A stretch of DNA of 64,000 nt from a bacterium (GTDB lineage: Bacteria > Sysuimicrobiota > Sysuimicrobiia > Sysuimicrobiales > Segetimicrobiaceae). The translations under genes were made by a program, and so were the position numbers. The stretch is from NCBI GenBank assembly GCA_035691305.1, contig DASSJF010000035.1:1-64000 (forward strand). Direction: 5' to 3'. The notes under the pieces are model-generated. The model was not told the origin of the DNA, did no database searches, and saw only the letters and a list, made by a program, of their open reading frames with translations. Below are positions 4,888 through 5,508 of the stretch, one piece after another (within the stretch, counting starts at the first letter, position 1; every line of letters starts with the position of its first letter).

Positions 4888-5247
4888 CTAGAAGGTGACC
4901 ACGCTCGACTCAGAAGCCATCGTCGCAAACTTGATGGGATCTATGAACGACGCGTTCAGTGTCTTGAGATCGTCTTCTGTCACCCCACGGGCGACTGAGC
5001 ACGCGCCTCAGACGTATACCGGGACTTTTCCTTTTACCACCTTGTCAATCAGTTCGGGGAGCGCCGGGAATCCTACGCCGTGTATCGTCTTGGCGACCGC
5101 GGCTTTTGCGACATACACCGCTTCCCCGAGGAGCGCGATCGTGACTTCTTTTCCGCCGCCCATGGCACCGATCGCGACGATGAACGCCAGGGTGCACTTG
5201 GTCGGGTCGTCGGTCGCGTGCGTTGTAACGGATAGGATCTTGGCCAT
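4888..5247 (-). CDS. DsrE-like candidate selenoprotein (in-frame TGA = Sec80)
   Basis: A 119-residue DsrE-family protein if TGA at 5010-5008 is decoded as selenocysteine. The first 79 residues (MAKILSVTTHATDDP, then CTLAFIVAIGAMGGG, KGKVPVYV) are a typical DsrE/DsrF half. The same frame continues after the TGA with GACSVARGVTEDDLKTLNAS and ends at a TAG, completing the expected domain length. The residue at TGA aligns with the conserved Cys after the VYV strand, giving a U-G-A-C motif. A SECIS-like hairpin follows at 4979-4995. ATG 5247 has ggggagg 6-7 nt upstream; a GTG one codon earlier is too close to it. It lies 24 nt behind tusA in one operon. Role inferred: sulfur/selenium-thiol transfer with TusA. 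If TGA is a stop, the product is a truncated 79-aa protein without the active site. Confidence 0.8.
4979..5010 (-). promoter_or_regulatory. Candidate bacterial SECIS element of the dsrE-like gene
   Basis: Downstream of the UGA, RNA bases 13-19 (GUCGCCC) pair with bases 23-29 (GGGUGAC) through 7 bp including one G-U. The apical loop is GUG. The loop begins 20 nt after UGA and opens with G, both within the accepted pattern for bacterial SECIS elements (about 16-37 nt spacing, G among the first two loop bases). Folding was done by eye. Confidence 0.65.
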
Positions 5248-5271
5248 CACGACCTCCCCATCCTTAAATTT

Positions 5272-5508
5272 CTAGGCCTTTTGAATGATCACCCGAAAGA
5301 CAGCCTGATCCACGTCTTTGAGTTCGCAAGGGTACCCCAGCTCCTGCATCAACGCTGGAATGGTTTGCTTGGCAGGATAGTAGTCTGTGACCACCTCAAG
5401 AATCTCCCCCGCCGCCATCTCATTGAGGGTCATACGGGTATCGTAGGTCGGACCGGGACAGACGGAGCCTCGAAGATCGAGGCGTCGAGTAGGCCTCTCA
5501 GTGCTCAT
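5272..5508 (-). CDS. tusA: TusA/SirA-family sulfur carrier
   Basis: A 78-residue protein with the TusA signature RLDLRGSVCPGPTYDTR; Cys17 of the CPGP motif is the persulfide carrier. The rest follows the family: GEILEVVTDYYPAKQTIPAL for the middle strand and helix, and a final FRVIIQ strand. The length is normal for the family. ATG 5508 is preceded by a G-run SD. It is the first gene of a two-gene operon with the DsrE-like protein 24 nt downstream. TusA proteins donate sulfur to DsrE-type partners in sulfur relay or sulfur oxidation; here the partner appears to carry selenocysteine at the acceptor position. Confidence 0.85.
   Translation of the reverse strand: MSTERPTRRLDLRGSVCPGPTYDTRMTLNEMAAGEILEVVTDYYPAKQTIPALMQELGYPCELKDVDQAVFRVIIQKA

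Follow-up and report, generated by a model that had tools for sequence, protein, structure and literature searches.

A DsrE-like gene interrupted by a single TGA

The stretch of DNA analysed here (the window, 64,000 nucleotides) carries on its minus strand a DsrE-like reading frame with a TGA in its interior. Is this codon the end of a gene or is it translated, and if it is read as selenocysteine (Sec), what might the protein do? The gene (Sec-DsrE) extends over positions 4888..5247 (minus strand), from an ATG at 5247-5245 to a TAG at 4890-4888. It comprises 119 codons and one in-frame TGA, which lies at 5008..5010 (minus strand) and corresponds to residue 80. The likely start is the ATG at 5247, which is preceded by GGGGAGG; a GTG at 5250 lies directly upstream of it. 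When 5247-4888 was translated with the TGA as U, the product continued after U80 as GACSVARGVTEDDLKTLNASFIDPIKFATMASESSVVTF before the TAG was reached. Three residues beyond the TGA a TGC codon (4999..5001, minus strand) encodes Cys83, a possible resolving cysteine that completes a U-G-A-C motif.

The full product matched the DsrE profile PF02635 over positions 2-116 of 116 with 50.5 bits (cut-off 22.7; E = 2.7e-13). Divided at the TGA, the 79 residues before it covered profile positions 2-76 and the 40 residues from it onwards positions 77-116, with scores of 20.1 and 16.6 bits, both below the cut-off. Because the halves match adjoining stretches of the profile and neither passes alone, the TGA sits inside one domain. 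Translation and profile thus bore out the sequence-only reading, which had described one TGA and, beyond it, 39 more codons in the same frame that complete the domain and end in TAG. Both parts of the protein were equally conserved, the identity to the relative L010 being 0.84 after the TGA and 0.82 before it. The part after the TGA is under purifying selection, with dN/dS of about 0.03-0.14 in most of the comparisons with relatives for which it was computable. No NCBIfam model, TIGR03527 included, matched the members of the DsrE alignment, so standard annotation would probably truncate the gene.

The TGA in related genes

Peptide patterns chosen so as to leave out residue 80 were used to search genome contigs of bacteria and archaea for relatives, which yielded 19 loci. 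Every Sec-clade locus that included the site (16/16) had TGA there and a frame that continued, the opposite of close relatives that all end at this stop. These loci came from Rokubacteria/Rokuibacteriota, Desulfobacterales, Chloroflexi/Anaerolineales, Deltaproteobacteria, Acidobacteria, Aquicultor and Acidimicrobiia. The three other loci were L021, which ends before the site, and two SAR116 loci with Ser. Five more distant DsrE genes from the phylum of the window's genome (L035-L039) had TGA too. The UxxC motif was conserved throughout the Sec clade with the exception of two UGGU forms (L053 and L067). Homologues outside this group, L069-L078 and others, had Cys at position 80, many of them as CxxC.

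The hairpin downstream of the TGA

A hairpin of 7 bp, GUCGCCC-GUG-GGGUGAC, occupies bases 13-29 after the UGA (4979..4995, minus strand), and folding confirmed that its GUG loop starts at base 20, as had been proposed from the letters alone. Bacterial SECIS elements are described as having a loop of 3-9 nt, a stem of 4-16 bp, a minimum free energy of at most -7.5, a G within the first two loop positions and a distance of 16-37 nt from the UGA (PMC13188914). With a 3-nt loop, a distance of 19 nt and -9.7 kcal/mol for the hairpin alone, the element of Sec-DsrE lies within all of these published limits. The fold of 51 nt was only moderately better than shuffled sequences (z = -1.89; 7/200 shuffles equally good), so that it is the comparison of related genes that carries the argument for the hairpin.

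Among 20 distinct sequences 97.1% of the hairpin cells were paired, against at most 66% when the structure was slid by 1-3 columns and 86% in a shuffle control that may be inflated by the kinship of the sequences. Both partners had changed in three pairs, among them replacements of UA by AU and of CG by GC. Covariation in the same sequences scored 0.273, compared with 0.071 +/- 0.024 in shuffles. In 12/12 core genes the UGA was followed at codons +6 to +9 by GCC CGT GGG GTG, while upstream codons for the same residue were identical in only 50% of pairs. The slid control and this synonymous freeze point the same way as the covariation and suggest that the hairpin is maintained at the RNA level.

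Selenocysteine machinery of the genome

The genome to which the window belongs (3.58 Mb in 87 contigs, 96% complete) contains selA, selB, selD and tRNA-Sec, the four genes for which a search had been proposed. The tRNA-Sec scored 68.7 bits, above the Rfam cut-off, and was confirmed by ARAGORN with the anticodon tca; the majority of genomes in the phylum likewise had a tRNA-Sec. SelB and SelA share a contig with tRNA-Sec. SelD, with 393 bits, itself carries one TGA in frame (L029, G000:C40:8198-9118), where its active-site motif reads CAGU, and is therefore probably a selenoprotein as well.

The conserved UGA within a coding frame, the hairpin, the machinery and the homology together make it very probable that the gene encodes a genuine selenoprotein, a single-domain sulfurtransferase of the DsrE family with selenocysteine at UGA codon 80. 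SelB and tRNA-Sec would read this codon with the hairpin just downstream as a guide. Incorporation of selenocysteine in this organism, an inference when only the letters had been seen, is now supported by the machinery, the TGA in 16/16 relatives, the covariation of the hairpin and the alignment with catalytic cysteines.

Fold and catalytic position

An AlphaFold model built from the family alignment had a mean pLDDT of 93.4 and matched the structures of YchN, DsrEFH, 3mc3 and TusBCD. In a profile alignment that included the Cys homologues, U80 fell on the Cys of TusD (2d1p_A), YchN, 3mc3 and 3pnx; for TusD and YchN this is the active-site cysteine. The earlier placement of the TGA at a conserved DsrE cysteine was borne out by this alignment and by the homologues with Cys at position 80. 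In TusD/DsrE sulfur is bound at Cys78, which is essential (PMC3397948), and it is this position that Sec80 occupies in the alignment. In a well-studied sulfurtransferase fold, selenocysteine would thus take the very place of the catalytic residue that carries the sulfur.

The protein shares its fold with TusD of the Escherichia coli TusBCD complex and DsrE of the DsrEFH complex of Allochromatium. It differs from both in having Sec for Cys, an additional Cys at +3 and a length of 119 aa standing alone. Its gene also lacks an adjoining partner of the TusB/TusC or DsrF/DsrH type; a PF02635 search of the genome found no such gene next to Sec-DsrE. Only two PF02635 genes were present in this genome, on different contigs.

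The TusA neighbour

Upstream of Sec-DsrE lies a gene for a TusA-like sulfur carrier (5272..5508, minus strand; 78 aa; PF01206, 65 bits) with a CPGP motif; 24 bases separate its end from the start codon of Sec-DsrE. This neighbour, which the sequence-only reading of the Sec-DsrE gene left out, has a bearing on function. TusA was directly upstream in 8 of the 11 core relatives (L009-L014, L016 and L019). It was not found near the gene in the core relatives L015, L017 and L018 nor beside more distant Sec-DsrE copies, so the pairing is not obligatory. In the window the two genes probably form a two-gene operon. A longer conserved operon was considered and rejected, since on inspection the open reading frames beyond TusA differed between relatives. 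A Pfam scan of the near neighbours in the window revealed no Hdr-like genes.

The second PF02635 gene of the genome belongs to another TusA-DsrE pair, with an ordinary Cys (L102, G000:C77:6690-7255). Its neighbour is an FAD/NAD-dependent oxidoreductase which by eye resembles sulfide:quinone reductase. With this Cys-type pair the cell has another sulfur relay at its disposal, and the Sec pair is therefore probably specialised.

Possible functions of the Sec-DsrE protein

The function that we consider best is that of a TusA-linked persulfide or redox sulfurtransferase in which Sec would serve as the nucleophile. A sulfur (or selenium) atom would pass, in one direction or the other, between the cysteine of the TusA CPxP motif and Sec80. 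Cys83, the likely resolving thiol, could then release the atom through a selenenyl-sulfide. We give this relay between TusA and Sec80 about even chances. A more far-reaching version, tentative and in our judgement rather unlikely, is that TusA and Sec-DsrE form a horizontally moving relay of two genes, in which Sec replaced the cysteine of a sulfurtransferase across a clade spanning many phyla and confers a chemistry beyond that of the Cys enzyme. If it were true, a clade in which no Cys form was found would imply selenium transfer or a fast reductive release of sulfur that the Cys enzyme does not perform.

It might be thought that the UxxC motif, a classic redox motif, marks the protein as a thiol-disulfide type of redox enzyme which reduces, for example, peroxide or low-molecular disulfides and takes no part in sulfur transfer. 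Surveys of selenoproteins group DsrE-like proteins with homologues of thiol redox proteins (PMC1088965, PMC2398784). However, both the fold and the catalytic residue in the alignment match sulfurtransferases that carry persulfide, and a sulfur carrier is what usually lies beside the gene in the core clade, which makes a purely redox role rather unlikely.

A supply of selenium is the next alternative: as a split analogue of YedF, TusA and Sec-DsrE would deliver reduced selenium and not sulfur. YedF is a fusion of TusA and DsrE domains with a CGxC motif and is linked to SelD (PMC5322559), and the best NCBIfam match of the window's TusA was the YedF-type model PRK11018, at 47 bits below the cut-off of 79 bits. 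Against this, TusA scored only 25.8 bits for TIGR03527 (cut-off 110), the members of the DsrE alignment match neither that model nor others of NCBIfam, and SelA, SelB and tRNA-Sec are encoded on a contig other than that of TusA and Sec-DsrE. The pair resembles YedF in its two domains, with UGxC in place of CGxC, but consists of separate genes whose profile matches fall far below the YedF cut-offs, and a role in selenium supply is improbable.

A genuine stop codon, or an error of sequencing or assembly in an ordinary Cys gene, with a decayed frame behind it, is a scarcely credible account of the TGA, which is only one base from TGC or TGT: the same TGA in 16/16 separately assembled Sec-clade relatives argues decisively against it, as do the purifying selection downstream and the covariation of the hairpin.

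Comparison with known DsrE-like selenoproteins

DsrE-like selenoproteins with a UxxC motif have been known since 2005. They were described from the Sargasso Sea (n=2), Desulfovibrio vulgaris (n=1) and the GOS data, where DsrE 1 (n=2) and DsrE 2 (n=19, with 15 Cys forms) were distinguished (PMC1088965, PMC1794560, PMC2398784), and they are included in a 2026 review (PMC13188914). The sequence-only reading was right that such proteins had been reported from marine metagenomes (PMC1088965, PMC2398784). The protein of the window resembles the Sargasso, D. vulgaris and GOS proteins, as they are described, in belonging to the DsrE family and in carrying Sec first in UxxC. PF02635 is common to it and to the Sargasso and DsrE 2 proteins, and a bSECIS just downstream is reported for the Sargasso form as well. 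Compared by description, which implies no placement in a subclade, it differs from all of these in its host, a member of a phylum of 43 genomes, and in the TusA gene upstream.

The accounts of the Sargasso, D. vulgaris and GOS proteins, in the published text available, mention no TusA partner. Among the papers searched, the terms DsrE, TusA and selenoprotein occur together in only one, on selenium use in Methanococcus maripaludis. DsrE-like UxxC selenoproteins are thus already known, and what is added here is the linkage to TusA and the breadth of the Sec clade. TusA is a concrete candidate partner for proteins which, judging by the literature available, have gone two decades without a function. 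A parallel exists in Metallosphaera cuprina, where DsrE3A passes thiosulfate to TusA and the two genes likewise lie in one cluster (PMC4175335); that system differs in being Cys-based, archaeal and linked to Hdr-like genes.

Phylogeny and probable horizontal acquisition

A tree was built of 49 sequences, and a branch with support of 98/93 divided it into 28 of the 29 Sec rows together with 4 Ser rows on one side and 16 Cys rows with the remaining Sec row, L079, on the other. In the few hundred genomes searched with a profile derived from the Sec clade, no Cys form turned up within that clade, a result that is provisional given this sampling. The Ser rows (L026, L027, L042 and L066; YVS or YLS) form a side lineage from SAR116, Deinococcus deserti and a genome from the order to which the window belongs. 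Their Ser at the Sec position suggests that the nucleophile may have been lost there, and a nucleophile at position 80 is accordingly not indispensable for every member of the wider clade.

The window's Sec-DsrE grouped with Rokubacteria and others, with identities of up to 83%. Elsewhere in the phylum (42 further genomes) no close copy was found, the copies present having only 36-39% identity. The G+C content of the TusA/Sec-DsrE module was 56%, compared with 61-64% in the nearest flanks and 69% in the window. The lack of a close copy in the phylum and the low G+C content of the module argue for acquisition and not for contamination, and the simplest reading would be that the gene was acquired horizontally. 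Contamination of the genome bin was also considered and rejected. The surrounding DNA is 69-79% identical to genomes within the same genus and family, and the contig is therefore most likely part of the lineage. Viral carriage was rejected in the same way, no relatives being found in viral contigs, and the plasmid search gave one distant match only, from Deinococcus and with Ser.

L079 (G278:C23:18867-19199), the Sec row among the Cys homologues, is a DsrE gene with a single TGA and a UGNC motif, and may represent an independent gain of Sec. L053 and L067 possess two in-frame TGAs nine bases apart (L053:1738-1749, L067:1738-1749), UGGU replacing UGxC. L053 comes from a member of the Rokuibacteriota, and in both genes a hairpin lies at the same distance, weaker in L067. 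For DsrE-like proteins the 2026 review gives only UxxC with one Sec (PMC13188914).
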